Assembly: GCA_009996615.1 (NCBI GenBank)
Contig: JAACZU010000002.1
Span: 268,045 to 332,044, forward strand
Direction of reading: 5' to 3'
DNA length: 64,000 bases
DNA from: Rhodanobacteraceae bacterium
Lineage (GTDB): Bacteria; Pseudomonadota; Gammaproteobacteria; Xanthomonadales; Rhodanobacteraceae
A program made the position numbers and the translations under genes. The notes below the pieces were generated by a model. The model was given only the letters and a program-made list of their open reading frames with translations, searched no databases and was not told the DNA's origin. This document shows positions 4,557 to 27,770 of this stretch, one piece after another. Each line of letters starts with the position of its first letter. Positions within the stretch are counted from its first letter, which is position 1.

Positions 4557-6050
4557 ATGAGCCTCGCCGTCGTCTACAGCCGCGCACAGGACGGCATCGC
4601 CGCGCCGCAGGTCGCCTGCGAAGTGCACCTGTCCGGCGGCTTGCCCGGCACCTCGATCGTCGGCCTGCCCGAGACTGCGGTGAAGGAGGCACGCGACCGC
4701 GTGCGTGCGGCGATCCTGACCGCGCAATACGACTATCCGCAGCGGAAAGTCACGGTGAACCTGGCGCCGGCCGACCTGCCCAAGGACGGCGGCCGCTTCG
4801 ACCTGCCGATCGCGCTCGGCATCCTCGCCGCCAACGGCGGCGTGCCGCGCGAGCGGCTGCAGGACTGCGAATTCATCGGCGAACTGGCGCTGTCCGGCGA
4901 ACTGCGCCCGGTCCGCGGCGTGCTGCCGGCCGTCGTGCAGGCGACGCGGCGCGGCCGCCGCGTGATCGTGCCGCGCGGCAACGCGGCCGAGGCGGCGCTG
5001 GTCGCCGATGCCGAGGTGCGCGTGGCCGGTTCCCTGCTCGAGGTCTGCGCGCACCTGGCCGGTCGCGCCGAACTGGCGCCGGCGGTGGCGGCGCCGCAGG
5101 CCGACACGCCGCTGCCCGATGCGCCCGACCTCGCCGACGTGCGCGGCCAGCCGCAGGCGCGACGCGCGCTCGAGATCGCCGCCGCCGGCGCGCACAACCT
5201 GCTGCTGGTCGGCCCGCCCGGCACCGGCAAGACCATGCTGGCCAGCCGCCTGCCCGGCATCCTGCCGCCACTGGAGGAGCACGAGGCGCTCGAGCTCGCC
5301 GCGGTGCGCTCGGTCGCCGGCCACGACGGCGACGTCACGCGCTGGAAGGCGCGCGCGTTCCGTTCCCCGCACCACACCGCCTCGGCCGTCGCGCTGGTCG
5401 GCGGCGGCTCGATCCCGCGCCCGGGCGAGGTCTCGCTCGCCCACCACGGCGTGCTGTTCCTCGACGAACTGCCCGAGTTCGACCGGCACGTGCTCGAGGT
5501 GCTGCGCGAGCCGCTCGAATCGGGCCGCATCGCGATCTCGCGCGCGGCGCGCCAGGCCGAGTTCCCGGCGCGCTTCCAGCTCGTCGCCGCGATGAACCCG
5601 TGTCCGTGCGGCTACGTCGGCGACCCGGGCGGCCGCTGCCGCTGCACGCCCGACGCGATCGCGCGCTACCGCGCACGCCTGTCCGGCCCGCTGCTCGACC
5701 GCATCGACCTGAAGCTCGAGATGCCGCGCGTGCCGCAGGCCGAGCTGCGCGACAGCGCCGCCGGCGAATCCAGCGCGACCGTCGCCGCGCGCGTCGCCGC
5801 CGCGCGCACGCGCCAGCTCGCCCGCGCCGGCAAGCCGAACGCCTGGCTCGGCAACCGCGAAGTCGAACGCGACTGCGTGCTCGACGCCGCGCAGCACGTG
5901 CTGCTCGACCGCGCGGTCGAGCGCCTCGGCCTGTCCGCGCGCGCCTACCACCGCGTGCTGCGCGTCGCCCGCACGATCGCCGACCTCGCCGGCAGCGAGC
6001 GGATCGAGACAGCGCATTTGTCCGAGGCGATCCAGTACCGGCGGACGTGA
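4557..6050 (+). CDS. comM: YifB/ComM family Mg-chelatase-like AAA+ ATPase
   Basis: The 497-residue protein begins MSLAVVYSRAQDGIAAPQV, typical of ComM, and has an N-terminal ChlI-like domain (residues 1-170), Walker A GPPGTGKT near residue 219, Walker B VLFLDELPEF near 300, and a C-terminal Mg-chelatase domain with the CPCGY cysteine cluster. ComM is a hexameric helicase that promotes branch migration during natural transformation. An upstream in-frame extension exists but lacks a better ribosome site than the ATG at 4557. No other competence gene is in the window. Confidence 0.92.
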   Translation: MSLAVVYSRAQDGIAAPQVACEVHLSGGLPGTSIVGLPETAVKEARDRVRAAILTAQYDYPQRKVTVNLAPADLPKDGGRFDLPIALGILAANGGVPRERLQDCEFIGELALSGELRPVRGVLPAVVQATRRGRRVIVPRGNAAEAALVADAEVRVAGSLLEVCAHLAGRAELAPAVAAPQADTPLPDAPDLADVRGQPQARRALEIAAAGAHNLLLVGPPGTGKTMLASRLPGILPPLEEHEALELAAVRSVAGHDGDVTRWKARAFRSPHHTASAVALVGGGSIPRPGEVSLAHHGVLFLDELPEFDRHVLEVLREPLESGRIAISRAARQAEFPARFQLVAAMNPCPCGYVGDPGGRCRCTPDAIARYRARLSGPLLDRIDLKLEMPRVPQAELRDSAAGESSATVAARVAAARTRQLARAGKPNAWLGNREVERDCVLDAAQHVLLDRAVERLGLSARAYHRVLRVARTIADLAGSERIETAHLSEAIQYRRT

Positions 6051-14919: not shown

Positions 14920-17052
14920 ATGCCCCGTATGACCGTCTGCCGCCTCCTCGCGGCGAGTGGAAGCCTGCTGTCCGCGTTCGCCGCCGCGGCCGGCGCCGCC
15001 CCGCCGGACGCGGCCAGCCTGCCGGTCGTCGTCGTCACCGCCACGCGCAGCGAGCAGCCGCCGTTCGAGGTGCCGGCCTCGATCGACGCGGTGCGCATCG
15101 ACGCCGTGCCCGACACCGCCGGCGTGAACCTGTCCGAGTACCTCGCCGCGATCCCGGGCCTGCTCGCGCGCGACCGCCAGAACTACGCACAGGACGCGCA
15201 GATCTCGATCCGCGGCTTCGGCGCACGCGCGACCTTCGGCGTGCGCGGCGTGCGCCTGTACACCGACGGCATCCCGGCGACGATGCCGGACGGCCAGGGC
15301 CAGGTGTCGCATTTCAACCTCGATTCGGCCGAGCGCGTGGAGATCCTGCGCGGGCCGTTCTCGGCGCTGTACGGCAACTCCTCCGGCGGCGTGATCCAGC
15401 TCTTCACCGCCGACGGCCGCGAGCCGCCGCAACTGGAGTTCGGCACGGTCGGCGCGCGCTACGGCCTGTGGCGCGCGAGCGCGAACGCGCGCGGCGTGGC
15501 CGGGCCGCTCGACTACAACCTCGACCTGACGCATTTCCAGACCGACGGCTACCGCGACCACAGCCGCGCGCAGCGCGAGTCGGGCAACGCCAAGCTCGGC
15601 CTCGACCTCGGCGATAGCGGCCGCCTGACCCTGCTCGCCAACACGCTGGCGCTGCCCGGCGCGCAGGATCCGCTCGGCCTGACCCATGCGCAGTTCGACG
15701 CCGACCCGCGCCAGGTCGCCGCGGTCGCGACGCAGTTCGACACGCGCAAGAGCGTGCACCAGGCGCAGGGCGGCGCGATCTGGGAACAGGACCTCGGCGG
15801 CGGCCACCAGCTGCGCCTGATGGGCTACGCCGGCCAGCGCGGCGTCGAGCAGTACCTCGCCGTGCCGGCCGCGGCGCAGGCCAGTCCGCTCAGTTCGGGC
15901 GGCGTGGTCGACCTCGCCAGCGACTACGGCGGCAGCGACGCACGCTGGAGCTGGCGCGGCGACCTCGGCGGGCGGCCGTTCGAGCTGACCGCCGGCCTCG
16001 CCTGGGACCGCCAGCAGCAGCATCGCCGCGGCTACGAGAACTTCGTCGGCACGCGCCTGGGCGTGCGCGGCGCGCTGCGCCGCGACGAGGACGACACCGT
16101 GTCGAACTTCGACCAGTACGCGCAGGCGACCTGGCGCCTCGCCGAACGCTGGTCGCTGACCGCCGGCGTGCGCCACAGCCAGGTGCGCTTCCGCTCCGCC
16201 GACCGCTACATCGTGCCCGGCAATCCCGACGACAGCGGCCACGTCGCCTACGCCGCGACCACGCCGGTGGCCGGCCTGATGTTCCGTGCCAGCGAGCGCG
16301 TGCACGCCTACGCCTCGTACGGCAAGGGCTTCGAGACGCCGACCTTCAACGAGCTGGGCTACCGCGCCGATGGCGGCGCCGGCCTCGCGTTCGACCTGCG
16401 CCCGGCGCGCAGCCGCAACGCCGAGCTCGGCCTGAAGCTGCGTCCGACCCAGGACATCGAGGCGAACCTCGCGCTGTTCCGCGCCGACACGCGCGACGAA
16501 CTCGCCGTCGCGACCAGCATCGGCGGCCGCACGACCTACCAGAACATCGGCCGCGCGCGCCGCGACGGCCTCGAGGCCGCGCTGGACTGGCGCTTCGCGC
16601 CGGCGTGGACGCTGCAGCTGGCCTGGACGCGGCTCGACGCGACGTTCCGCAGCGGCTTCCTGACCTGCGCGACGTCGACCTGCACGACGCCGAACACGCC
16701 GGTCGCCGCTGGCGCGCGCATCCCGGGCCTGCCCAGGTCCGACCTGCACGCCGCGCTGCGCTGGGGCGGCGAGCGCGGCTGGCGCGCCGGACTCAGCGCC
16801 GATTACGTCGGCGCGGTCGTTGTCAACGACCGCGGCAGCGACGCCGCCCCGGCCTACACCGTCGCCGCCGCCGACCTCGGCTACGGCCGCGACCTTCCCG
16901 GCGGCCACCTGCGCCTGTTCGGCCGCATCGACAACCTGTTCGACCGCCGCTACGCCGGCTCGGTCATCGTCAACGACGCCAACGGCCGCTACTTCGAACC
17001 GGCCCCGGACCGCACGCTGATGCTCGGCGTGCAGTGGCGCTGGGTGCTGTAG
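14920..17052 (+). CDS. TonB-dependent outer-membrane receptor
   Basis: The 710-residue protein has a signal peptide (about 1-27, ending AAAAGAA), a plug domain with VVVTATRSE near residue 40 and 'ISIRGFGARATFGVRGVRLY', then a 22-strand-like barrel rich in alternating aromatic residues, ending in VQWRWVL. Plug and barrel resemble FecA/FhuA/YncD-type iron-chelate receptors, but the ligand cannot be assigned. The ATG lies two bases after the regulator's stop codon, so regulator and receptor are probably one transcription unit. A GTG at 14914 overlapping that stop is an alternative start. Confidence 0.85.
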   Translation: MPRMTVCRLLAASGSLLSAFAAAAGAAPPDAASLPVVVVTATRSEQPPFEVPASIDAVRIDAVPDTAGVNLSEYLAAIPGLLARDRQNYAQDAQISIRGFGARATFGVRGVRLYTDGIPATMPDGQGQVSHFNLDSAERVEILRGPFSALYGNSSGGVIQLFTADGREPPQLEFGTVGARYGLWRASANARGVAGPLDYNLDLTHFQTDGYRDHSRAQRESGNAKLGLDLGDSGRLTLLANTLALPGAQDPLGLTHAQFDADPRQVAAVATQFDTRKSVHQAQGGAIWEQDLGGGHQLRLMGYAGQRGVEQYLAVPAAAQASPLSSGGVVDLASDYGGSDARWSWRGDLGGRPFELTAGLAWDRQQQHRRGYENFVGTRLGVRGALRRDEDDTVSNFDQYAQATWRLAERWSLTAGVRHSQVRFRSADRYIVPGNPDDSGHVAYAATTPVAGLMFRASERVHAYASYGKGFETPTFNELGYRADGGAGLAFDLRPARSRNAELGLKLRPTQDIEANLALFRADTRDELAVATSIGGRTTYQNIGRARRDGLEAALDWRFAPAWTLQLAWTRLDATFRSGFLTCATSTCTTPNTPVAAGARIPGLPRSDLHAALRWGGERGWRAGLSADYVGAVVVNDRGSDAAPAYTVAAADLGYGRDLPGGHLRLFGRIDNLFDRRYAGSVIVNDANGRYFEPAPDRTLMLGVQWRWVL

Positions 17053-17096
17053 GCGCGCCGCAGGCGCGATTGTCGGATAGCCCGGGCAAGCGAAGC

Positions 17097-17135
17097 GCCA
17101 TGCGCTGGCGACACAACCTGTCGCGAGCGCATGGC
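17097..17135. promoter_or_regulatory. 17-bp-arm hairpin holding dyad site 1 (GCGACA-CAACC-TGTCGC)
   Basis: Arms 17097-17113 and 17119-17135 pair over 17 bp with one G-G mismatch around a CAACC loop. The core GCGACA-N5-TGTCGC (17108-17124) is the same dyad found at 20294, 24393 and 26185. It lies between the TonB receptor stop and cobB, 44 bases before the cobB ATG. No T tract follows, so an operator is more likely than a terminator, although both roles are possible. A related half site, TGTCGGATAG, is at 17071. Confidence 0.6.
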
Positions 17136-17168
17136 ATCCTGATCGCACCGAATGCCCGTTAGCCCGCA

Positions 17169-17996
17169 ATGAACGTGCTTCCCACCCTTCCTGCCCGCTT
17201 CGCCGACTGCCTGCGCGCGGCGCGCTCGGTCCTGATCCTGAGCGGCGCCGGCATGTCGGCCGAAAGCGGAGTGGCGACCTTCCGCGGCGCGCGCGGCGGC
17301 CTGTGGTCCGACCACGACCCGGCGCAACTGGCGACCGCGCAGGCCTGGCGCGCCGATCCGGCGCTGGTGTGGGGCTGGTACCTGTGGCGCATGGCGCAGG
17401 TCCGCCACGCGCAGCCGCACGCCGGCTACCACGCGCTCGCCGCGCTGCGCGCGCGCGTGCCCGCGCTGCACATCGTCACGCAGAACGTCGACGACCTGCA
17501 CGAACGCGCCGGCCTCACCGACGTGATCCACCTGCACGGCGAGCTGTTCGCGCACCGCTGTTTCGCCTGCGCGCGCCCGCACGCGCCCGTCGCGATCCCG
17601 GACGCCGCCGCGCACGCACCGCGCCTGCGCGTCGAGCCGCCGCGCTGCGCGCACTGCGGCGAGCGCATCCGTCCCGGCGTGGTCTGGTTCGGCGAATCGC
17701 TGCCGGAAGCCGCGTGGAACGCGGCGGTGACGCTCGCGAACCGCTGCGACCTGCTGCTCGTCGTCGGCACCGCGGGCGTCGTCTACCCCGCCGCCGGCCT
17801 GCCGGCGATCGCCCGCCGCGCCGGCGCCACCGTGGTCGAGATCAACCCGGAGGACACCGAATTGTCGGCCAGCGCGGACCTGTGCCTGCGCACGTCCGCG
17901 GCGCTCGGCCTTTCGGCCTGCGCGCAGGCCGTTGCGGCATCCGACGATCACGCCGGCGCGCGGTGTCGTCGACCCTGCCCGGCAAGACTGCCTTGA
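17169..17996 (+). CDS. cobB: Sirtuin, NAD-dependent protein deacylase (CobB type)
   Basis: The 275-residue enzyme carries the NAD-binding GAGMSAESG near residue 26, TQNVDDLHERAG, the catalytic histidine in HLHGELF near 123, and a zinc finger of two pairs, CFAC (about 132-135) and CAHC (about 160-163). The YLWR tetrad near residue 60 fits the Y-x-x-R signature of class III sirtuins that remove succinyl or malonyl groups. Acs (1359-3299) is a classical CobB substrate. The gene is the first after dyad site 1 and is followed closely by two genes of the accessory island. The last 25 residues look unrelated to the family. Confidence 0.9.
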   Translation: MNVLPTLPARFADCLRAARSVLILSGAGMSAESGVATFRGARGGLWSDHDPAQLATAQAWRADPALVWGWYLWRMAQVRHAQPHAGYHALAALRARVPALHIVTQNVDDLHERAGLTDVIHLHGELFAHRCFACARPHAPVAIPDAAAHAPRLRVEPPRCAHCGERIRPGVVWFGESLPEAAWNAAVTLANRCDLLLVVGTAGVVYPAAGLPAIARRAGATVVEINPEDTELSASADLCLRTSAALGLSACAQAVAASDDHAGARCRRPCPARLP

Positions 17997-18015
17997 CCAA
18001 AAGGACGGAAGCATC

Positions 18016-18252
18016 GTGAAGAGCGAGATCGGGGAGGCGCTGCATATCCGCCTGTCGCCGGAGCAGACGCGGCAGTTGCACGAGTGGGCGGCCCGGCGCA
18101 CCGCGGCCGAAGTCGAGGCGGGATGCGAGCCATCGGGGTTCCACCTCGAGGTCGCAGTCAGCGGCGGCTATCCGTCGACCATCGAGGCGATCGCAGGCGC
18201 TGAGCGCCTCGATCTGGGCGACGTGGAAGTCGTGGTGGTGGCGGGGGAGTGA
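18016..18252 (+). CDS. Small protein of unknown function
   Basis: This gives 78 residues from a GTG start with AAGGA about 11 bases upstream: VKSEIGEALHIRLSPEQTRQ, then an acidic C-terminus ending VEVVVVAGE. It is predicted soluble, alpha/beta, with no recognisable motif. It begins 20 bases after cobB and ends 24 bases before the PD-(D/E)XK-like gene, so the three are probably co-transcribed. Base composition drops noticeably in GC here compared with cobB. Confidence 0.5.
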   Translation: MKSEIGEALHIRLSPEQTRQLHEWAARRTAAEVEAGCEPSGFHLEVAVSGGYPSTIEAIAGAERLDLGDVEVVVVAGE

Positions 18253-18276
18253 GTTTCCAAACACGGGGAGGGAGTG

Positions 18277-19434
18277 ATGGTTGAGCTGGAACGCGGGAAC
18301 GATGAGGCCTTCTGGAGCGCATTGCTGGCAAAGCTCATCGACAAGGGGCGACGCATTCCAAAGTTCCAGGTCGAGCGTGCGGTCGGGCCGATCCTGGGGT
18401 TCTTTCTGGACCAGGCGATATCGCATCTGCTTGGCAGCAAAGTGGTCACCCTGGCGGCGGAATTTCCGCTGAAGAAACCGGGGAACAGGCAGTCGACGAA
18501 CATCGACTGGCTGATGTACGACCAGCAGAAAGGGGAGCTGGTGCTGCTGGAATTGAAGACCGAACCCGGGAGCTTTCGGAGCGAGCAGTTCGATACCTAC
18601 CTTGCGCTCGCCAACCAAGAGGCTCCTTGGACGGACATGAAAAAAGCCTTCCACTCGATCCGCGATGCTTCCGCGTACAGCCGGAAATACGACTACGTGG
18701 CAAAGCAATTGGAGGCGGTGTCCGCCACCTGCGCTGGCATCGAACGGGCGCAGGTAAGGGTCTTGTATCTCGCCCCCAAGTCGGCCGCCGAATCGTTCCG
18801 CCGGGCGCTCGCTGAATTCACGAAGGAACATCCCGGCTCGGCGCTTGGAGATCGTGTGGAGTTCCGGTCCTTCGAGGACCTGAGGGGAAGCGCGCATGCC
18901 GCTGGCGAGTTCGATTTCGCGCGCTACCGCGACATCCTGTATGACGCGTTGCTCTTATTGGACAAGAACGACGAGGACGATGCCGGCGGCCCGCCGGGCG
19001 TGGTCGGATCGAACTATCGCGGGCTGGTTCCTCTGGATGAAGCGCTCGCGCTGTGCAAGGGCGCCGAGCCGGTCATCGTCGGCTTTGCGGGCGGCGAGCG
19101 CGAACTGCAGCGACAGGATGTCGCGCGTCTCGAGGAGCGTCTGTACAAGTGGGATTGGGCGGGCGATGCCGGCAAGGGCACGATCGGCACCAAGGCGACT
19201 GGCAACTGGATCGACGGTGCGACGTTCGTCGAGATCGTCGAAGCCGTGCGCTCGCGCCGGTTGCGCAGCGAGGCCGACGTCCAGCGCATTGCCGCGCGCA
19301 TCGGCGATGCGCTCAGGGTCAATCCGGACCTGAAGCTCGGCCAGCTCATCGAGCGCGTGTCGCGCGACGCGGCGCTCGCGCTGGACGAGATGACGGACGA
19401 CGATCTGGTCGACGCCCTGGCGGCGCGGCAGTAG
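18277..19434 (+). CDS. PD-(D/E)XK nuclease-like protein
   Basis: The 385-residue protein carries a plausible PD-(D/E)XK core: 'STNIDWLMYDQQKG' with an aspartate near residue 76, then 'ELVLLELKTE' with E-x-K near 91-93, and a following helix with Q/E residues. The C-terminal half contains a region with KGTIGTKATGNWIDGATF that I do not recognise. A strong GGGGAGGGAG lies just ahead of the ATG. Codon use includes TTG, TTA, AAA and GGG and is clearly less GC-biased than the flanking housekeeping genes, a sign of transfer. The nuclease call is by motif only. Confidence 0.55.
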   Translation: MVELERGNDEAFWSALLAKLIDKGRRIPKFQVERAVGPILGFFLDQAISHLLGSKVVTLAAEFPLKKPGNRQSTNIDWLMYDQQKGELVLLELKTEPGSFRSEQFDTYLALANQEAPWTDMKKAFHSIRDASAYSRKYDYVAKQLEAVSATCAGIERAQVRVLYLAPKSAAESFRRALAEFTKEHPGSALGDRVEFRSFEDLRGSAHAAGEFDFARYRDILYDALLLLDKNDEDDAGGPPGVVGSNYRGLVPLDEALALCKGAEPVIVGFAGGERELQRQDVARLEERLYKWDWAGDAGKGTIGTKATGNWIDGATFVEIVEAVRSRRLRSEADVQRIAARIGDALRVNPDLKLGQLIERVSRDAALALDEMTDDDLVDALAARQ

Positions 19435-19465
19435 GTAGCGAGCCTTCCGGCTGGTGGCGTGCCCA

Positions 19466-20245
19466 TCAGCCGGAAGTCGTTCTCGCCAGCGCGATCACCG
19501 AGAAATTGTCGGGCGCGCCCGCGCGAGGTACGGCGTGTCGCGTCGCCGCAATCAGCGTCGGCGGATCACCGGACGCACGAAGGATTCGATGCCAATCCGC
19601 CTCGGCCAGCACGTCGTGCACGCCGTCGCTGCACGGTACGAGCAGGTCGCCCATCGCCAGCCGTGCCTCGACGCGATGGATCGAGAAATCCGAGTCGTCG
19701 GGATCGGTGCCGATGCAGTCCGTCAGCATGTCGTAGAGGCTGGCGTACTCGACGCCTTCGCCCGCGATCCCGGCATCGCGCAACCGTTGCAGCTCGGTGT
19801 GGTCGCGGCTAAGCTGGCCGATGTCGCCGTCCGCCCGCCGCAGATAGGCGCGGCTGTCGCCGCAGTTCAGGATCGCGACGCGATCCTCACGCACCTGCGC
19901 GGCGACCAGCGTGCTCGCGCCGCCGCGCAGGCCGGGCGAGCGTTCGGCGCGATCGCATAGCCGCGTATGCGCTTCGCGCAAATGCCGGTTCGCCAGCAGG
20001 TCATCGCGCAGCCAGTCGGGGTGCTCGCGCACGATCGCCGGCAGCAGTTCGAGCAGGGTGCGGCTCACGCGGCCTGATCGCGGGCTGACCGCCAGGCCGT
20101 CGGCGATCGCCGCCAGCATCCCGTGGTCGATGACGACCTGCGCCTCGAGATCCATGGCTTGATGTACCCGCGTTCCGACGAGGACGGCGTCCTGCTGCCC
20201 CGGGGGCGAGCCGCGATGCGTGCAGAACGCAGCGTGCAGGTGCAT
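19466..20245 (-). CDS. PP2C-family serine/threonine protein phosphatase
   Basis: The 259-residue product shows the PP2C metal-binding and core motifs in order: MLAAIADGLA near residue 49, GGASTLV near 107, NCGDSRAYL near 128, PCSDGVHDV near 205 and DNFSVIAL near 248. It is a soluble Mn/Mg-dependent phosphatase for phospho-Ser/Thr. GAGG lies 7 bases upstream of the ATG. It is divergent from the unknown gene at 20368, with dyad site 2 between them. No partner kinase is visible in the window. Confidence 0.88.
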   Translation of the reverse strand: MHLHAAFCTHRGSPPGQQDAVLVGTRVHQAMDLEAQVVIDHGMLAAIADGLAVSPRSGRVSRTLLELLPAIVREHPDWLRDDLLANRHLREAHTRLCDRAERSPGLRGGASTLVAAQVREDRVAILNCGDSRAYLRRADGDIGQLSRDHTELQRLRDAGIAGEGVEYASLYDMLTDCIGTDPDDSDFSIHRVEARLAMGDLLVPCSDGVHDVLAEADWHRILRASGDPPTLIAATRHAVPRAGAPDNFSVIALARTTSG

Positions 20246-20291
20246 GTCCGGTCCTCATCGAGGGATTCGAGGCCTCCAAATGGCGGCATGG

Positions 20292-20312
20292 ATGCGACAT
20301 GCGCTGTCGCAT
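20292..20312. promoter_or_regulatory. Dyad site 2 (ATGCGACA-TGCGC-TGTCGCAT)
   Basis: Perfect 8-bp arms flank five bases. The core GCGACA-N5-TGTCGC is 20294-20310. It sits 47 bases upstream of the PP2C start and 56 bases upstream of the divergent gene at 20368, so one bound protein could control both. Confidence 0.65.
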
Positions 20313-20367
20313 GCACCAACCACGATCGCCCCTCGGCGTGGGAATTTCGACATGCGGGGAGGTGCCA

Positions 20368-21111
20368 GTGGAGCAGAACGGATTCCGTGTCACGACGCTC
20401 GCGCACGCACCGGGTTTCGTCGCGGTCAGGTCGGGGGCGGAGCTCCGCATCGCCGGGCCCGCCACGGTCGTCTTCGAACTGCTCGAGTCCGGCTGCGGGT
20501 TTCTCGCGTTGACTGCATTCCGGCTAGCGGCGTCCGTGCAGGAGAACGTGGAGGCGTTCCTCGCAGTGCCGGGGTGCTTGCGTGCGCGGCTCGGAAGGCG
20601 GTCGCCCGGATACTGGCTGATCGCCCATTGGCGGGACGCCGCGGATCGGCGTTGCCACGCGAGCGGTTCGGGGCCCGAAGGGCAGGTCACGTCCGGCGCC
20701 GAATATCTGTGGCTGGTTCCGAAGCCGCAGGGCGTGGAGGACGGCGACTGGGTCGCAGCGGCCGAATCGCTCGCGACCGAGACCGGTCAGGGCGCGTTCG
20801 TGATCCGCCGGGCGCAGGACCGGCAGGCCGAGGTCCGCGGCACGGACGGTCGCGTGTGGGCGACGCTCGATGCGACTGCGGAGGTCATGTCCGCGCTGGG
20901 CGACCTGGCGCACGCGCGAGCCCGGACGGGCACCCTCGAGCGCGAGCGCATCCGTGACCTTCTGCAACGCGGCTCCGTCGCCGACGCAGCGGCCAGCGGC
21001 GAGGCAGCGACGGGGTCATCGGATGTGGTGCTCAGCGTGGCAACCGCGCACAGCATCGGCACACACTGGCTGTTCAAGCACATCGACGCATTGCCGGGGC
21101 CGCGGCTTTGA
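20368..21111 (+). CDS. Protein of unknown function, divergent partner of PP2C phosphatase
   Basis: The frame encodes 247 residues from a GTG start at 20368 with GGGGAGG five bases upstream. It is soluble with no signal peptide and no motif I recognise. The N-terminal half (FRVTTLAHAPGFVAVRSGAE onward) is beta-rich; the C-terminal third is helical and acidic. It shares its intergenic control region, including dyad site 2, with the PP2C gene, which suggests a shared process. Whether it is a phosphatase substrate cannot be said. Confidence 0.55.
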   Translation: MEQNGFRVTTLAHAPGFVAVRSGAELRIAGPATVVFELLESGCGFLALTAFRLAASVQENVEAFLAVPGCLRARLGRRSPGYWLIAHWRDAADRRCHASGSGPEGQVTSGAEYLWLVPKPQGVEDGDWVAAAESLATETGQGAFVIRRAQDRQAEVRGTDGRVWATLDATAEVMSALGDLAHARARTGTLERERIRDLLQRGSVADAAASGEAATGSSDVVLSVATAHSIGTHWLFKHIDALPGPRL

Positions 21112-21166
21112 CCGCCTGCAAGGAGCCTGACGGATGCAAGGCCGGCCCCGGTCAATCGTACGGCGG

Positions 21167-21421
21167 CTACTTTTCGTGAACCCTGTTCGGGCTATACGAG
21201 CAGCCCGATCCGGAGGACGCGGAACGACACCAGATGCACTTGTTGGCGCCATGTCCGTGACGATGCTTGTGTGTCGGGCTGTAGGAGCAGCCCGAGCCGT
21301 AGGACGACGAGCCGCAAAACTCGCACTTGCGTTCGTCGTCGGTGTGCTCGTGCTTCTTGTGCGGGCTGTACGAGCAGCCGCTTCCGTACGAGGTCGAATT
21401 GCAGTAGCGGCACTTGCTCAT
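21167..21421 (-). CDS. Three-repeat Cys/His mini-protein (C-x2-C-x8-C-x7-H), putative zinc binder
   Basis: The 84-residue protein is built of three copies of a 29-residue unit in exact register: C4-C7-C16-H24, C33-C36-C45-H53 and C62-C65-C74-H82. Each unit reads like CxxCxSxSYGSGCSYSP followed by a His-rich linker. The spacing C-x2-C-x8-C-x7-H would suit one zinc per unit. A GGAGGAGAGGG ribosome site precedes the ATG at 21421. Similar SYGSGC-type small proteins occur in other bacteria as hypothetical proteins; I know no function. It is between the PP2C pair and an HD-domain gene. Confidence 0.7.
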   Translation of the reverse strand: MSKCRYCNSTSYGSGCSYSPHKKHEHTDDERKCEFCGSSSYGSGCSYSPTHKHRHGHGANKCIWCRSASSGSGCSYSPNRVHEK

Positions 21422-21535
21422 GCTCCCTCTCCTCCGTTTGGCACCACGACGTGTGTGCACCGGTGATGCGCCGGCTCGGTGGCCGGATCGTCCTGCACAG
21501 GCGATTTCTTCGGGCCGGCCGGTCGGGTGTGCACG

Positions 21536-22051
21536 TCAGTCCGGCAACTCGGCCAGCGCATCGAACATTTCCGTGCTCCGGCCGCTGAGGCTCCTGGCAT
21601 AAGCCCACCGCACGAACTCGGCATCACGCGCGGCCTCGCAGCACAGGCGGTCGGAGTCCGGCACGATGCCGACCCTGCCCAGGTCGAGTCGATCCGCGTC
21701 CCAGCAGGTCTGCACCGTGACGTCCGCCTTCATGTGGCCATCGCTGTGGCCTTCGCACGCGTGGGCGAGCAGCTCGACCTCGTCGGTCGACAGGCGCACC
21801 AGTTCGCGCGGAAGCGATCGCGCGAACGCCGCGGCGCGCGGACCGTGGAACGGATCGTGGCCGTCGTTCCGGCGCTGCGAGTCGTGCAGGAACGCGAACA
21901 GTTCGACGACGGATGGATTGGCGCCGGTCAGTGCGGCCAGGCGAAGCCCGTTCAGTCGTACGCGCGCCCAGTGCGGAGCGCCGTGGATGCCGTGCCAATC
22001 GAGAACGAACTGCCGCCGGATCAGGCGGATCAACGTGCCGGAAATTGCCAT
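21536..22051 (-). CDS. HD-domain phosphohydrolase-like protein
   Basis: The 171-residue soluble protein shows an HD-type metal site: HGAPHWARVRLNG, the central HD in FAFLHDSQRRNDGHD, later histidines in ELLAHACEGHSDGH and an aspartate in CWDADRLDLGRVG. HD proteins hydrolyse phosphate esters or (d)NTPs; the substrate here is unknown. The ATG at 22051 was chosen because AGGGGG lies about 7 bases upstream; an in-frame ATG at 22069 is possible. It lies in the accessory island, downstream of the tandem ATPase on the same strand. Confidence 0.7.
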   Translation of the reverse strand: MAISGTLIRLIRRQFVLDWHGIHGAPHWARVRLNGLRLAALTGANPSVVELFAFLHDSQRRNDGHDPFHGPRAAAFARSLPRELVRLSTDEVELLAHACEGHSDGHMKADVTVQTCWDADRLDLGRVGIVPDSDRLCCEAARDAEFVRWAYARSLSGRSTEMFDALAELPD

Positions 22052-22231
22052 CTGTGGCCCCCTGTGCATGCGACGGCGGCATCATCCGTGCGCGGGTGCG
22101 TGCCCACGCCGCCGGTCGTCGCATCTCCCCGCCGCAATATGTCATCGCGCTTGCCGTGCGGGCAAGCCAGCGCCGGGAGTCCGCGTCGTGCTTCGCCGGA
22201 ACCCTCTCCCCACCGCTCTCCCGACCGCCAT

Positions 22232-24346
22232 TCAGTGGAACCCGATCCCGCGCCGCCGCCCCTCCGGCTTCATCGCCTGCTCTACCGACAGCAGCCGCAC
22301 GAGGCGCTCCGCGGTCGCGCGCTCGCCCGTCACGCGCATCTGCCGCAGCGCATTCGCGAAGTCGCCCGGGGTCAAATGGTCGAGGCGGTCGAGTTGCGCG
22401 AGCGCCGGGCGCAGCGCGTCGAGTGCTTCGCCGGTGTCGGCGACGACGCGCAACAGCAGCGCGCGGCGTTGTTCGCGCGTCAGGTAGTCGAACTTCACCT
22501 TGAAGTCGAAGCGGCGCAGCGAGGCGGCTTCGAGCGTGTCGACGAGGTTGGTCGAGGCGACGAAGATCCCGTCGAACGCTTCCATCTGGGTCAGCAGTTC
22601 GTTGACCTGGGTGACTTCCCAGCGGCGCTGCGCGCCGGCGCGGTCGCGCAGGAAGCCGTCGGCTTCGTCGATGACGAGGATCGCGCCGTCGCTGGTGGCC
22701 TGCGCGAACGCGGCGCGGATCCTCGCCTCGGTGCCGCCGACGTACTTGTCGAGCAGGTCGGAGGCGCGGCGCACCAGCACCGGGCGCTCGAGCACGCGGC
22801 CGAGGTGGTGCGCGAAGGCGGTCTTGCCGGTGCCGGGCGGGCCGTACAGGCACAGGCGCGCGCCGTGGCCGGTGGCGAGGCCGCGCGCGAGCGCGTCGAG
22901 GTCGCGGTCGGTGTTGAGGAAGGCCGGGTCGTAATGGGCGGGAAGGGCCGGCTCGGCCACCGTCGCCGCGTGGCCCATCGCGCGCAGCGAGGCGCCGATC
23001 ACGCGCTCGGCGCAGGCATCGCGCGCGGCCTGGCTGCGACCGCGCAGCGTGCGCACGACGCGCGCGGCGCGTTCGGCCTGCGCCGGTGCGAGACCCTCGA
23101 TCGCGGCGAGCCGCGCGAGGCAGGCGTCGGACACCTGGCCCGGCGCGAAGTAGCGTTCGAGCACGCGCCGGCGGATCGCCGCGCCGGGCGCGCGGAACTC
23201 GACCACGAGGTCGAAGCGGCGCAGGAACGCCGGGTCGATCGCGCCGATCGTGTTGCAGGCCCAGATCGCCGGTACCGGGTTCGATTCCAGTGTCTCGTTG
23301 ACCCAGCTCTTGCGCAGGCGGTCGGGGTCGGCGCTGCGCGGGCGCGCGCCGAACAGCGCGAGCAGGGCGCCGTCCTCTTCGCTGCCGAACACGTCTTCGA
23401 CCTCGTCGAACAGCAGCAGCTGGCGCGGGCGCGCGGCGAGCACCGACTGGCAGGCCGAGTAGGCGCGAAAGCGGCGCTGGCCGGAGATCGGATCGCCGTC
23501 GCTGTCGCAGTTGGGCACCTCATGCACGCTCGCGCGCAGCGGCCCGGCGAGCATGCGCGCGAACTCGGTCTTGCCGGTGCCGGGCGCGCCGTGCAGCAGG
23601 ATGTTGACGCCGCGCTGGCGCCGCGAGAGCGCTTCGGCGAGATAGTCGCGCACGAGGTCGGCGTCGGCGACGTGCGCGTAGTCCTCCAGCGTCAGGCGCG
23701 GCGGTGGCGCCGGGCGCACCAGGTGACGCAGGAAGCCCGCCTCGTCGAAGCTCGGCGAGAGCAGCGCGTCGGCCAGACCGTCATTGAGCGCGGTCGGAAA
23801 GCTCAAGCCGATCGTGCCCGAGTCCAGGAAGCCGCTGCGGCGCAGCGTGCCGGCGGGTCGGTAGGCACCGGCCAGGTCCTGTGGCCGGCAACCGGTTGCG
23901 TGCCGCATCAGCTCGAGGAAGTCGCGTTCGGTCGTCACGGCCACGCGGTAGAAGTCGTGCACGTGGTTGACGCGCGCGGCGATCACCATCACGCGCAACA
24001 GCGCGCACTCGGTGCGGCCCAGGTGGAGCATGTCGCCGAGCCGCTCGATGTTGCGCGCGAGCCGATCGCGGCCGCCGCCGCGCCGCGCCTGCAGCGATCG
24101 CAACTGCCGTTCCACCGCCGCGCGCAGGTCGGCGGCGCCGGCGCGGCCGTCATACTCGTCGCTCTCCTCCAGCCCGAGCAGGGTCAGCACGTCGTGGTCG
24201 CGCAGGCGGCCGCGCTCGAACAGGCGCTGGTACCAGCCGCTGCCGGCGAGCATGCGTGTGGCCAGCAGCGCCGCCTCGCGCGCGAGCGGCGAGCGGAACG
24301 GGATCGGTGCGTAGGCGGCGGTCGCGGCCGTATCGATGGCGGACAT
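22232..24346 (-). CDS. Tandem AAA+ ATPase
   Basis: The 704-residue protein has an N-terminal helical region (1-220) and two AAA+ modules. Module 1 has Walker A GAPGTGKTE near residue 249 and Walker B LLLFDEVEDVF; module 2 has Walker A GPPGTGKTA near 500, VGGTEARIRAAFAQA and Walker B ILVIDEADGF near 555. Both contain RRFD arginine-finger motifs and ASTN/ACNT sensor-1 segments. No protease, transmembrane or nuclease domain is fused. It is divergent from the WYL regulator, with dyad site 3 between them. I cannot name a specific family; remodelling or defence roles are both possible. Confidence 0.82.
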   Translation of the reverse strand: MSAIDTAATAAYAPIPFRSPLAREAALLATRMLAGSGWYQRLFERGRLRDHDVLTLLGLEESDEYDGRAGAADLRAAVERQLRSLQARRGGGRDRLARNIERLGDMLHLGRTECALLRVMVIAARVNHVHDFYRVAVTTERDFLELMRHATGCRPQDLAGAYRPAGTLRRSGFLDSGTIGLSFPTALNDGLADALLSPSFDEAGFLRHLVRPAPPPRLTLEDYAHVADADLVRDYLAEALSRRQRGVNILLHGAPGTGKTEFARMLAGPLRASVHEVPNCDSDGDPISGQRRFRAYSACQSVLAARPRQLLLFDEVEDVFGSEEDGALLALFGARPRSADPDRLRKSWVNETLESNPVPAIWACNTIGAIDPAFLRRFDLVVEFRAPGAAIRRRVLERYFAPGQVSDACLARLAAIEGLAPAQAERAARVVRTLRGRSQAARDACAERVIGASLRAMGHAATVAEPALPAHYDPAFLNTDRDLDALARGLATGHGARLCLYGPPGTGKTAFAHHLGRVLERPVLVRRASDLLDKYVGGTEARIRAAFAQATSDGAILVIDEADGFLRDRAGAQRRWEVTQVNELLTQMEAFDGIFVASTNLVDTLEAASLRRFDFKVKFDYLTREQRRALLLRVVADTGEALDALRPALAQLDRLDHLTPGDFANALRQMRVTGERATAERLVRLLSVEQAMKPEGRRRGIGFH

Positions 24347-24392
24347 GCAAGGTTCCTCGTCGCTTCGAGACGGCCATTGTCGGCAACGGTCA

Positions 24393-24421
24393 CGACAGAT
24401 CCTGTCGGATAGGGGTAGACT
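24393..24421. promoter_or_regulatory. Dyad site 3 (CGACA-GATCC-TGTCG) over the WYL promoter
   Basis: CGACAG-ATC-CTGTCG (24393-24407) is a perfect dyad with the same CGACA-N5-TGTCG core as three other sites. Its left arm occupies the -35 position exactly 17 bases before a TAGACT -10 box (24416-24421) reading into the WYL gene, an arrangement expected for autoregulation. The same region must also hold the promoter of the divergent AAA+ gene, whose ATG is at 24346. Confidence 0.65.
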
Positions 24422-24450
24422 GCCGCGTCACTCCCGCCATCGAGGCCGCC

Positions 24451-25449
24451 ATGTCCGATACGATCCAGCGCCATCTGGCGATGCTGAGCCTGATTCCGGC
24501 GTTGCCGCGCAAGACCACCGCCTCGCAGCTGCGCGCGCAGCTCGCCGCGCAGGGTTTCGACGTGCACGTGCGCAGCATCGAGCGCGACCTGCACAAGCTG
24601 TCGAACTTCGGCCTGGTCGACGACGGCGCCAAGCCGGCCGGCTGGTCGTGGGTCGCGGACCGGAAGGTGCCGACGCTGCCGCCGATGAGCACCGAGAACG
24701 CGCTCGCGCTGGAGCTGGTGCGGCGGCACCTGGCGGCGATCCTGCCGCGGCGCATGCTGGCGCTGCTCGAGCGGCCGTTCGACGAGGCGCGGCGCACGCT
24801 CGACCTGTTCGCCGAGGTGCCGGTCGGCCGCTGGAGCGAGCGCGTCGCGGTGCTGCCGGACGGTCCGCCGCTGCTGCCGCCGGAGGTCGCGCCGGACGTG
24901 CTCGAAGCGGTTTGCGACGCGCTGCTGCGCGGCCGCCAGCTGCAGGCGAGCTACCGCGCGATCGGCGCGCCGCGCGGCCGCCGCTACACGCTGCATCCGC
25001 TCGGCCTGGTCCATCGCGACGGCGTGTTCTACCTCGTCGCGACGGTCAACGACTACGACGATCCGCGCCACTTCGCGCTGCAGCGCATGGGCAGCGCGCA
25101 GGTGCAGGACGCGCCCGCGGCGCGGCCGGACGCCTTCGACCTCGACCGCCACATCCGCGAGCAGCGCGCATTCGAGTGGCCGCATGGCGAGACGGTGCGG
25201 CTGGAGCTGCGCGCCGACGCGTGGCTGGCCGAACACCTCGGCGAGCGCCGCCTCGCTGCCGACCAGGCCGTCGTGCCGTTGCGCGGCCGCGCCGGCATGT
25301 TCCGCGTCACCGCCACCGTCGCCGCGACCGAGCAGCTGTACTGGTGGCTGCGCAGCCTCGGCCCGAGCGTCGAGATCGTCAAGCCCGCGCGGCTGCGCAA
25401 GCGGCTGGCCGACGAGGTCGCGCAGCTCGCCGCGGCGTACCGCGTGTAG
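24451..25449 (+). CDS. WYL-domain transcriptional regulator
   Basis: The 332-residue protein has an N-terminal winged-helix DNA-binding domain (TTASQLRAQLAAQGFDVHVR, residues 20-60), a WYL domain (about 150-225) in which the motif region reads GLVHRDGVFYLVATV, that is FYL in place of WYL, and a C-terminal WCX extension. WYL regulators commonly bind nucleic-acid-type ligands and control phage-defence or DNA-damage genes. It is divergent from the tandem ATPase and followed by the HEPN gene. Dyad site 3 overlaps its promoter, and the same dyad recurs near other island genes. Confidence 0.88.
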   Translation: MSDTIQRHLAMLSLIPALPRKTTASQLRAQLAAQGFDVHVRSIERDLHKLSNFGLVDDGAKPAGWSWVADRKVPTLPPMSTENALALELVRRHLAAILPRRMLALLERPFDEARRTLDLFAEVPVGRWSERVAVLPDGPPLLPPEVAPDVLEAVCDALLRGRQLQASYRAIGAPRGRRYTLHPLGLVHRDGVFYLVATVNDYDDPRHFALQRMGSAQVQDAPAARPDAFDLDRHIREQRAFEWPHGETVRLELRADAWLAEHLGERRLAADQAVVPLRGRAGMFRVTATVAATEQLYWWLRSLGPSVEIVKPARLRKRLADEVAQLAAAYRV

Positions 25450-25480
25450 GCGCGGCTTCCGCCGGCGTCGCGGCGCGGCC

Positions 25481-25486
25481 TAGAAT
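25481..25486 (+). promoter_or_regulatory. Candidate -10 box TAGAAT for the HEPN gene
   Basis: TAGAAT lies 27 bases upstream of the first possible ATG at 25508. No clear -35 hexamer is visible. It suggests the HEPN gene can be transcribed separately from the WYL gene. Confidence 0.3.
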
Positions 25487-25513
25487 CGGCGCTCCCCGGG
25501 GGAGGGCATGCAC

Positions 25514-26170
25514 ATGGCGCGCGACGGGCACGCTCAGCGGCTGAAGGACAAACTGCGCGGGGCGGCGGACCACGCCGAGCCGTCGCGCATCCGCCTGCAT
25601 CGCGCGATCAGCTGGCTGGCGCGCGCCGAGGCCGAGACGGACGACCACGACGCGTGCTTCGTGTTCCTGTGGATCGCGTTCAACGCGGCCTACGCACAGG
25701 AGCTGGGCGGCAGCGCCAGCGCGCGCGAGCAGCTCAAGGCGTTCTTCGCGCGCCTGCTCGCGCTCGACCGCGCCGGGCGCCTGGCGGCGCTGCTGCTGTC
25801 GCAGTTCTCCGGCCCGATCCGCACGCTGATCGAGAACCGCTACGTGTTCGAGCCGTTCTGGCGCGCGCTGCGCGAGCACGACGCCAGCGAGCGCTGGCAG
25901 GAGCAGTTCAGCGCCAGCCGCCGGGTCGCCACGCGCGCGATGGTCGGCGGCCAGGCCGGCACCGTGCTCGAGGTCGTGTTCGACCGCCTGTACGTGCTGC
26001 GCAACCAGCTCGTGCACGGCGGCGCGACCTGGAGCAGCCAGGTCAACCGCGCCCAGGTGCGCGACGGCGCCAACCTGCTGATGGCGATCGTGCCGGTCGT
26101 GATCGAGCTGATGCTGGACCACCCGGCGGCCGACTTCGGCGACATCCTCTATCCGGTGTTGCCGGACTGA
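25514..26170 (+). CDS. HEPN-like domain protein
   Basis: The 218-residue soluble helical protein starts a HEPN-like fold with RLHRAISWLARAEAE and FLWIAFNAAYAQEL, and near residue 162 carries RNQLVH, fitting the R-x4-H catalytic signature of HEPN ribonucleases. HEPN proteins are frequent effectors of toxin and defence systems. The ATG at 25514 sits 7 bases after GGGGGAGGG; an ATG at 25508 is too close to it. It lies between the WYL regulator and the DUF2779 nuclease. No cognate MNT antitoxin gene is adjacent. Confidence 0.65.
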   Translation: MARDGHAQRLKDKLRGAADHAEPSRIRLHRAISWLARAEAETDDHDACFVFLWIAFNAAYAQELGGSASAREQLKAFFARLLALDRAGRLAALLLSQFSGPIRTLIENRYVFEPFWRALREHDASERWQEQFSASRRVATRAMVGGQAGTVLEVVFDRLYVLRNQLVHGGATWSSQVNRAQVRDGANLLMAIVPVVIELMLDHPAADFGDILYPVLPD

Positions 26171-26184
26171 GCCCGGCATCCGAC

Positions 26185-26201
26185 GCGACACGAACTGTCG
26201 C
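26185..26201. promoter_or_regulatory. Dyad site 4 (GCGACA-CGAAC-TGTCGC)
   Basis: A perfect dyad lies 14 bases after the HEPN stop and 42 bases before the DUF2779 start, the same core and spacing as sites 1 to 3. It implies the nuclease gene has its own regulated promoter. Confidence 0.6.
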
Positions 26202-26243
26202 CAGCGGCTCGCACACTGGCGCCTCGAACGAGGAGGAGCAGCC

Positions 26244-27770
26244 GTGGCCGGTACCAGCGCGACGACACCCCGATTGTCCAAATCCCGCGTCCAGTCCGGC
26301 CGCCAGTGCCACAAGCGGCTGTGGCTGGAACTGCACCGGCGCGACGCGGCGCAGTGGAGCGAGGCGGCGCAGGCGGTGCTCGACGCCGGCACGCAGTTCG
26401 GCGAGCTGGCGCGCGAGCTGCTCGGCGGCGGCGTGCTGATCGAGGCCGACCACCTGCACGTGGACGACGCGCTGGCCGAGACGGCGGCCGCGCTGGCGCT
26501 GCCGCGGCGGCAGGCGCCGCGCCTGTTCGAGGCCGCGTTCTCGCACCGCGGCGTGCGCGTGCGCGTCGATGCGCTCGAACGCGGCCGCCGCGGCGACACC
26601 CTGGTCGAGGTCAAGTCGACCGCCTCGGTCAAGGACGAGCACCTGTGGGACTGCGCGATCCAGACCTGGGTCGCGCGCGGCGCCGGCCGCGCGATCGCCA
26701 AGGTCGTGCTGGCGCACGTGGACACGGCGTTCGTGTATCAAACGCCGGGCGACTACCGCGGCCTGCTGCACCGGGTCGACATCACCGCCGAGGTCGAGGC
26801 GCGGCTGCCGGAGATCCCGCGCCTGGTCGCCGAACTCAAGCGCGTCGCGGCCGGGCCGATGCCGGCGATCGCGACCGGCGCGCACTGCGCGCAGCCGTAC
26901 GACTGCCCGTTCTTCGAGCACTGCCGCGCGGCCGAGCCGCCCGGTCCCGAGTACCCGGTCGACCTGCTGCCGCACGCGGTCGGCGTGATCGCGCGCCTGC
27001 TCGCCGCCGGCTACACCGACCTGCGCAAGGTGCCGACCAGCGCGTTGCCGCCGGGCCGGCTGCAGCGCATCGCGCGCGTCACGCGCACCGGCCGCGCGCA
27101 TGTGTCGCCGAAGCTGCCGCGCCTGCTCGCCGCGATCGCGTATCCGCGCTACTACCTCGACTTCGAGACGGTCAGCTTCGTCGTGCCGCGCTGGCCCGGC
27201 ACGCGGCCATTCCAGCCGGTGCCGTTCCAGTTTTCGTGCCACGTCGAGCAGCGCCCCGGCGAGCTCGCGCACGCGGACTTCCTCGACCTGTCCGGCGCCT
27301 CGCCGCTGCGCGCGTTCGCCGAATGCCTGCTCGCCACGCTCGGCACGCACGGGCCGGTGCTGGTGTGGAACCGCGGCTTCGAGGCTGCGCCCCTGCGCGA
27401 CCTCGCCGCGCTGTTTCCGGACCTGGCCGACGCGCTGCTCGGCGTGGCCGAACGCCTGCTCGACCTGCTGCCGCTGTACCGCGCGCACTACTACCACCGC
27501 GACATGCGCGGCTCGTGGTCGATCAAGCGCGTGCTGCCGACCGTCGCGCCGGAGCTCGCCTACGACGAGCTCGCGATCGGCGACGGCAACGCGGCGCAGG
27601 CCGGCTACCTCGAGGCGATCGACGCCGCCACGCCGCCGCAGCGGCGCGCCGCGCTGCACGCGGAGCTGAGCGCGTACTGCCGCCGCGACACCGAAGCGAT
27701 GCTGCGCCTGATGACGCCACCGGCGCCGCGCCGTGCGCCGCGCGCGGCCGGTGCATCGCCGCCCGCGTGA
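26244..27770 (+). CDS. DUF2779 protein: Cas4-like Fe-S PD-(D/E)XK nuclease fused to a DEDD-type exonuclease
   Basis: The 508-residue protein has an N-terminal Cas4/RecB-like part: Cys22 in GRQCHKRLWL, an active-site aspartate near residue 107 (VRVDALERG), E-V-K near 122 (TLVEVKST), then C215-x5-C221-x5-C227. These four cysteines match the iron-sulfur arrangement of Cas4/AddB nucleases. The C-terminal part has DEDD exonuclease motifs: YLDFETVSF near 304, VWNRGFE near 374 and YCRRDTEAM near 478. A GTG start follows AGGAGGAG. It is the last gene of the island and is preceded by dyad site 4. DNA processing is likely; the pathway is unknown. Confidence 0.8.
   Translation: MAGTSATTPRLSKSRVQSGRQCHKRLWLELHRRDAAQWSEAAQAVLDAGTQFGELARELLGGGVLIEADHLHVDDALAETAAALALPRRQAPRLFEAAFSHRGVRVRVDALERGRRGDTLVEVKSTASVKDEHLWDCAIQTWVARGAGRAIAKVVLAHVDTAFVYQTPGDYRGLLHRVDITAEVEARLPEIPRLVAELKRVAAGPMPAIATGAHCAQPYDCPFFEHCRAAEPPGPEYPVDLLPHAVGVIARLLAAGYTDLRKVPTSALPPGRLQRIARVTRTGRAHVSPKLPRLLAAIAYPRYYLDFETVSFVVPRWPGTRPFQPVPFQFSCHVEQRPGELAHADFLDLSGASPLRAFAECLLATLGTHGPVLVWNRGFEAAPLRDLAALFPDLADALLGVAERLLDLLPLYRAHYYHRDMRGSWSIKRVLPTVAPELAYDELAIGDGNAAQAGYLEAIDAATPPQRRAALHAELSAYCRRDTEAMLRLMTPPAPRRAPRAAGASPPA

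Follow-up and report, generated by a model that had tools for sequence, protein, structure and literature searches.

We analysed a 64,000-nucleotide stretch of a Rhodanobacteraceae genome (assembly GCA_009996615.1, contig JAACZU010000002.1, positions 268,045 to 332,044 of the forward strand; hereafter the window), in which an island of accessory genes carries four exact copies of the dyad CGACA-N5-TGTCG, all given here on the plus strand. Site 1 (GCGACA-CAACC-TGTCGC, 17108-17124, with the CGACA core at 17109-17123) is a predicted operator 5' of cobB. Site 2 (GCGACA-TGCGC-TGTCGC, 20294-20310, core 20295-20309) lies between a PP2C-type phosphatase gene and a gene starting at 20368, and site 3 (CGACA-GATCC-TGTCG, 24393-24407), which has a counterpart in many relatives, between genes for an AAA ATPase and a WYL-family regulator. 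Site 4 (GCGACA-CGAAC-TGTCGC, 26185-26201, core 26186-26200) is a predicted operator 5' of a DUF2779 gene. Sites 1, 2 and 4 share the longer form GCGACA/TGTCGC, the spacer is five bases at every site, and all four sites are intergenic according to a codon-score gene caller. The original prediction of four identically spaced intergenic dyads within 9.1 kb was exact in each coordinate.

The genes around these sites combine a regulator with putative enzymes. The WYL regulator (24451-25449, plus strand, 332 amino acids; PF13280 7e-17, PF25583 6e-12), for which we also obtained an AlphaFold2 model and Foldseek matches, is divergent from a two-AAA-domain ATPase gene (22232-24346, minus strand; PF00004 8.2e-40 in two stretches, with a distant match to PADLOC IetA). 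The DUF2779 protein (26244-27770, plus strand, 508 amino acids) has a Cas4-like N-terminal region (PADLOC Cas4, 5.1e-6) followed by the DUF2779 domain (PF11074, 3.2e-39); the codon-score caller puts its start at 26274. The cobB gene (17169-17996, plus strand) encodes a Sir2-family NAD-dependent deacylase (PF02146 8.6e-46; NF001753 5e-87), and the phosphatase gene (19466-20245, minus strand) matches PF13672 at 3e-9 and NF033484 at 7.8e-23, the latter under its cut-off. The 247-amino-acid protein at 20368-21111 (plus strand) has a sub-threshold match to ABM as its sole match; an ATG at 20299 falls within site 2, and the start is more likely the GTG at 20368, which follows GGGGAGG.

The window holds four copies of CGACA-N5-TGTCG against 0.14 expected, which agrees with the earlier estimate of well under one chance copy per 64 kb, and none of 100 shuffles contained four. 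Across the whole genome (3,910,402 bases) there are five copies of the dyad, four within 9.1 kb of the island, and one of a control pattern; the fifth dyad falls within a called open reading frame of 805 amino acids (L098). The longer GCGACA-N5-TGTCGC occurs three times genome-wide, every time in the island, against one occurrence of its control. Thus, the dyad is neither common nor randomly placed across the chromosome, and we reject a chance origin on both window and genome counts. Searches allowing one mismatch in the window (5 found, 4.06 expected) or two mismatches in the genome (compared with the control) gave no excess. As near matches are not in excess in the window, the signal is confined to exact copies, and mismatched dyads are excluded as evidence below except where marked.

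Each of the four dyads is followed, exactly 11 bp past its end, by a predicted -10 hexamer: CATCCT for cobB (17135-17140, plus strand), CACGAT towards the 20368 gene (20321-20326, plus strand), GACAAT for the AAA gene (24376-24381, minus strand) and CACACT for the DUF2779 gene (26212-26217, plus strand). In the PP2C direction the corresponding hexamer is CCATTT, and the candidate -10 of the WYL gene, TAGACT (24416-24421, plus strand), starts 8 bp past the dyad, off the conserved spacing. Judged by these hexamers, site 2 appears to be a better fit to the 20368 gene than to PP2C, and site 3 a better fit to the divergent AAA gene than to the WYL gene. Site 3 had been thought to cover the -35 of the WYL gene 17 bases before TAGACT; the hexamer at that spacing, CGACAG, matches TTGACA at none of six positions, whereas an 18-bp spacing gives ACGACA, with four of six. 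The idea that one regulator serves all of these genes is supported, except that sites 2 and 3 seem aimed at the 20368 and AAA genes over PP2C and WYL. For each of these four targets the expected -35 lies within the dyad, with 0-2 of six matches to TTGACA at spacers of 16-18. Together, the hexamer at 11 bp and the poor -35 would place the dyad on the -35 of weak promoters, which is an activator's position and unlike that of the WYL repressor CapW.

The dyad recurs in relatives that carry the regulator. Among 61 genomes (our own and 60 relatives), 12 have a WYL gene of this clade, defined as E below 1e-45; in eight of them that gene has an exact dyad no more than 160 bp 5', in one a one-mismatch dyad and in three none. 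Order-wide, at E below 1e-40 and with at most five candidates scored per genome, 41 of 398 genomes are WYL-positive. Among 21 of their loci that we examined, four cut by a contig end were set aside (L142-L144 and L146, longer stretches of which entered the joint count below); 7 of the other 17 have an exact dyad within 220 bp 5', two have one with a single mismatch and eight have none. Jointly, 32 WYL regions (the window, L080-L090 and L133-L152) yield an exact dyad in 18 and only a one-mismatch dyad in three. When every five-base arm was scanned at spacers of 0-12, CGACA-N5 ranked clearly first and unrelated palindromes reached at most 2 of 32.

The same scan found the dyad 5' of the AAA gene in 14 of 20 regions (two more with one mismatch), of cobB in two of five (two more with one mismatch) and of PP2C in one of two; 5' of the DUF2779 gene it is exact in 5 of 12 regions, with one mismatch in one more. 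In a set of 17 cobB loci, two have an exact dyad (including that of genome G014), one has a one-mismatch dyad (G009, at -204) and 14 have none, and cobB is a weaker link to the dyad than DUF2779. Where the WYL gene lies 3' of the AAA gene in one operon, the dyad stands before AAA and not before WYL (L147, L148 and L150), as it does before the AAA-DUF2779-WYL operon of a Rhodoferax antarcticus plasmid (L254). On that plasmid an FtsZ/tubulin-like gene (L254:4048-5157) is divergent from the operon; an exact dyad at 5221 is followed at 11 bp by CACATT towards this gene, and a one-mismatch dyad at 5277 by GACAAT towards AAA.

Outside the order CGACA-N5, with its own register shift, is still the commonest palindrome upstream of WYL genes. 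A plasmid search returned a WYL relative in 22 of 72,556 records, and five of the 15 listed were opened: exact dyads occur in those of Marinobacter and Rhodoferax, one-mismatch dyads only in those of Vibrio (with the 11-bp hexamer) and Methylomonas (without it), and none in that of Halomonas. In relatives the dyad is present 5' of the WYL orthologue and of AAA, DUF2779 and cobB, which favours the original prediction, and its conservation is patchy and thinner beyond the order.

The promoter geometry is conserved along with the dyad. With duplicate sites collapsed, 16 of the 23 exact sites that face a target gene (AAA, DUF2779, cobB or the 20368 gene) have xAxxxT at exactly 11 bp and four more have it at 10 bp, against a median of 0 over offsets 0-44; among sites facing WYL, 5 of 18 have it at 11 bp. 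In a count pooled over 37 sources, the WYL loci contain 44 unique dyads, of which 43 are intergenic, a term that is lax in low-GC contigs such as L141, where gene calls outside the window are poor; the 11-bp hexamer is present in at least one direction at 30 of these 43. In L133 two dyads 35 bp apart (12521 and 12556) share one intergenic region and have 11-bp hexamers in opposite directions. Elsewhere in the genomes, the count covers 28 dyads, a part of the full list, from G008 and 11 WYL-positive genomes. Fourteen are intragenic, with the hexamer in none of 28 directions, and 14 are intergenic, with the hexamer in five; for four of these five a called gene starts no more than 250 bp away. 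The genes concerned include a 5'-nucleotidase (L093) and an ADP-ribosylglycohydrolase (L095), which are possible distant members of the regulon. The latter (L095:4973-5971, in G014) is preceded by a dyad with an 11-bp hexamer, far from the WYL locus.

These recurrences bear on whether the dyads might instead be RNA hairpins, terminators, repeats or products of chance. In favour of such structures, the arms of site 1 extend to 17 nt at 94% complementarity and follow a TonB-receptor-like gene, 3' of its stop codon. However, 17000-26300 has a single terminator-like match, at 18383 and off all sites, and before cobB of G014 the dyad is kept while the long arms are not. The recurrence of spacing, position and -10 geometry across gene families speaks against hairpins and chance alike. 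With no terminator at the sites and long arms that are not conserved, the terminator or hairpin reading is disfavoured, and we regard this whole group of explanations as very improbable.

The closest known parallel is DriD of Caulobacter crescentus, a WYL activator of the DNA-damage response that is itself activated by single-stranded DNA (PMC12340889). Its consensus is ATACGAC-N7-GTCGTAT, and a test oligonucleotide includes CGACA-N5-TGTCG. DriD binds over the -35, always equally far from the -10, the -35 elements match at one or two of six positions, and the site beside driD serves the divergent operon, not driD itself (PMC12340889). Scanning the printed DriD promoters by script, we found the 11-bp distance in those of didA (CAAGGT) and CCNA_03891 (CAATCT, with one mismatch in the site). 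The island resembles the DriD system in its core CGAC-N7-GTCG at promoters, its placement over a poor -35 and the 11-bp distance to the -10, shared with two of the three printed promoters, as well as in a site that adjoins the regulator gene yet faces the divergent gene. It differs in its flanks (GC against ATA in DriD) and in its targets, which are AAA, DUF2779, cobB and others against didA, bapE, recJ and dnaG.

The protein itself was also compared with DriD. The island WYL protein has an N-terminal helical or winged region, three helices, a WYL domain and a WCX domain, the last two assigned by Pfam and the winged helix-turn-helix from the model only; this domain order is similar to that of DriD. 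In the AlphaFold2 model (mean predicted local distance difference test score, pLDDT, 80; predicted template-modelling score, pTM, 0.59), built from alignments that drew on an organism-named genome collection (6 loci), the three helices span residues 81-97, 100-119 and 124-131; the DriD three-helix bundle is residues 79-133 (PMC12340889). The top Foldseek matches are DriD-DNA complexes (E 1e-14), followed by PafBC, CapW and BrxR. The helix-turn-helix sequences are hardly alignable, and the DNA-recognition arginines of DriD cannot be mapped with confidence onto the WYL protein. The promoter layout, with the dyad centred on the -35, fits DriD-type activation rather than generic WYL control.

Co-occurrence favours, short of proof, a site that is read by the WYL protein of the island. 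Among the 61 genomes DUF2779 is found in seven, every one among the 12 WYL-positive. Order-wide it is found in 29 of 398, comprising 15 of 41 WYL-positive genomes and 14 of 357 others (both searches covered 398 genomes, taken as the same set). Within the DNA examined around 19 of these DUF2779 loci, an exact dyad is present for 5 of the 8 that come from WYL-positive genomes, including one nearly 1.5 kb from the gene (G132), and for 1 of the 11 whose genomes gave no WYL hit. The 17-base dyad occurs in 18 copies in the 12 WYL-positive genomes and 25 in the 49 others (summed by hand). Additionally, the exact dyad is absent from the DNA examined at 18 loci where the WYL gene is a more distant paralogue (L062-L079). 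These same counts bear on the idea that some other regulator reads the dyads, such as G000:C18, a WYL paralogue on the chromosome. It is slightly closer to DriD than the island protein is (E about 5e-11), 50 of the 61 genomes have a WYL hit of one sort or another, and one genome pairs dyad and DUF2779 without any WYL hit. Given that the dyad is absent from paralogue loci and accompanies the island-type WYL gene instead, we consider another reader improbable. The dyad is tied to one WYL clade.

We propose, with a probability of about 0.7, that the WYL protein encoded at 24451-25449 binds all four dyads and acts as a DriD-like activator. A WYL homodimer would bind CGACA-N5-TGTCG, centred at the -35 of promoters in which no -35 hexamer is usable, and recruit RNA polymerase to the -10 that starts 11 bp downstream. 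It would thereby switch on cobB, the 20368 gene (and possibly PP2C), the AAA ATPase and the DUF2779 nuclease; site 3 would serve AAA, while WYL would have its own promoter with a -35 region overlapped by that site. If the parallel with DriD extends to the signal, single-stranded DNA arising from DNA damage or phage replication would be the trigger, and the island would constitute an inducible nuclease and ATPase response independent of SOS.

Several observations weigh against this proposal. No dyad, even at one mismatch, is found in 11 of the 32 WYL regions or 6 of the 12 DUF2779 regions, and the cobB genes of G049, G058 and G038 have none though these genomes carry an island-type WYL gene. 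The HEPN-like gene downstream of WYL has an exact dyad within 250 bp 5' in none of 10 regions (one region has one with a mismatch), and outside the order the same distance yields an exact dyad in only 5 of 28 WYL loci. The genome with a dyad before DUF2779 and no WYL hit is G192, which is 84% complete. The sole intragenic dyad of the WYL loci (L149) also has an 11-bp hexamer, and binomial values on the geometry counts overstate significance as related genomes are not independent. On the side of DriD, our scan of the printed promoters found no site in that of bapE and located the didA site only at three mismatches, and the global template-modelling score (TM-score) against DriD is low, at 0.27. 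Sequence similarity to DriD spans WYL-WCX only, with a weak helix-turn-helix alignment, and G000:C18 matches DriD better (5e-11 against 8e-10) and over nearly its full length (residues 8-317). Because of this partial alignment and better-matching paralogue, we limit the claim to saying that the WYL protein probably works like DriD, and do not claim orthology.

The WYL protein might also bind the dyads as a repressor, blocking RNA polymerase at the -35 and releasing on infection or damage. CapW and BrxR, both defence-associated WYL regulators, are repressors with palindromic operators, and the island resembles their systems in its WYL protein, palindromic sites and adjoining defence-type genes (PMC9122588, PMC9122601, PMC9122589); CapW also affects transcription in both directions (PMC9122588, PMC9122601, PMC9122589). 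A constant distance from operator to -10 could suit a blocker, and at site 3 a dyad overlaps the better -35 of the WYL promoter (ACGACA). However, the CapW operator lies over the -10, whereas the island dyads end 11 bp before the hexamer, in the geometry of an activator such as DriD. With 0-2 of six matches at the -35 in the target directions, there would be little promoter left to repress. The structural and sequence matches of the island protein to CapW and BrxR are weaker than those to DriD. BrxR arms are about 10-11 bp; the arms common to the sites here are 5-6 bp, but single sites have longer ones, of at least 9 nt in L126 and 17 nt at site 1. No consensus sigma-70 promoter was found in 17000-26300, but as 0.2 were expected this carries little weight. 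We thus judge repression unlikely, if less so than a different reader.

Activation by WYL proteins is also described for the mycobacterial PafBC and SiwR, which, like the proposed regulator, are WYL activators of damage or stress genes (PMC10693628, PMC12340889). SiwR controls adjacent genes through an imperfect 19-bp palindrome between the -35 and -10 (PMC10693628). Unlike the homodimer proposed here, PafBC is a heterodimer that binds near -24 (PMC12340889).

A role for the island in the response to damage or phage would follow from its nuclease and ATPase content and from the neighbours of WYL relatives elsewhere, which include a PLD-like protein and a helicase encoded in a plasmid operon. 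On a Methylomonas plasmid (L252:12982-15296), genes for an ADP-ribosylglycohydrolase and for DUF1819 and DUF1788 proteins lie 3' of the WYL relative; the last two are presumably BrxA/BrxB-type genes of bacteriophage exclusion (BREX) systems. In another locus (L139:10697-14631) a clade WYL gene is followed by two GTPase-type proteins, one of them strongly dynamin-like through its helical domain (PF18709, E 4.6e-121). The island ATPase shows AAA domain similarity to the anti-phage protein IetA (PADLOC IetA; NCBIfam NF042959), but scores 107.5 against a curated cut-off of 510 bits and has different partner genes, and we rejected an IetAS defence system on this score.

The protein encoded between WYL and DUF2779 (25508-26170, plus strand, 220 amino acids) is predicted to be helical and has an invariant RNQLVH motif (Rx4H), kept in all eight homologues. 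We take Rx4-6H to be the HEPN ribonuclease motif, and call the protein HEPN-like on this basis. A fold search against the PDB gave no match (best E 0.42), which leaves the assignment without fold support. Between cobB and the phosphatase gene are a 78-amino-acid open reading frame (18016-18252, plus strand) and a 385-amino-acid protein (18277-19434, plus strand), both without matches in family searches. An LELK motif seen by eye in the latter suggests a PD-(D/E)XK nuclease, and the segment NIDWLMYDQ...ELVLLELKTE resembles the core of that family. On the minus strand between the 247-amino-acid gene and AAA lie a small Cys-rich open reading frame and a protein of 171-177 amino acids; the former (21167-21460) has, by eye, repeated YGSGCSYSP...K-H...C-x2-C units. 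The flanking genes look ordinary by eye; to the left of the island lies one for a TonB-dependent receptor, and to the right one that is arginase-like. Searches of an open-access library gave no published account of this gene set.

The regulon logic of DriD is known, and our data support its control of an uncharacterised gene set as the new element. The defence-island regulators BrxR and CapW repress, in the reports cited here, and this locus predicts the opposite logic, DriD-type activation. The code (CGACA-N5-TGTCG, 11 bp, xAxxxT) gives a precise sequence pattern with which other genomes can be searched. The locus would tie DUF2779 to a damage-type switch and make an uncharacterised cluster a testable inducible system. 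More tentatively, and at somewhat less than even odds, this portable code and a DriD-like WYL protein activated by single-stranded DNA may form a common SOS-independent circuit for an undescribed anti-phage system. Its core would be the two-AAA ATPase, the Cas4-like/DUF2779 nuclease and the HEPN-like protein, carried on chromosomes and plasmids across several proteobacterial orders and extended to Sir2 and ADP-ribosylglycohydrolase.

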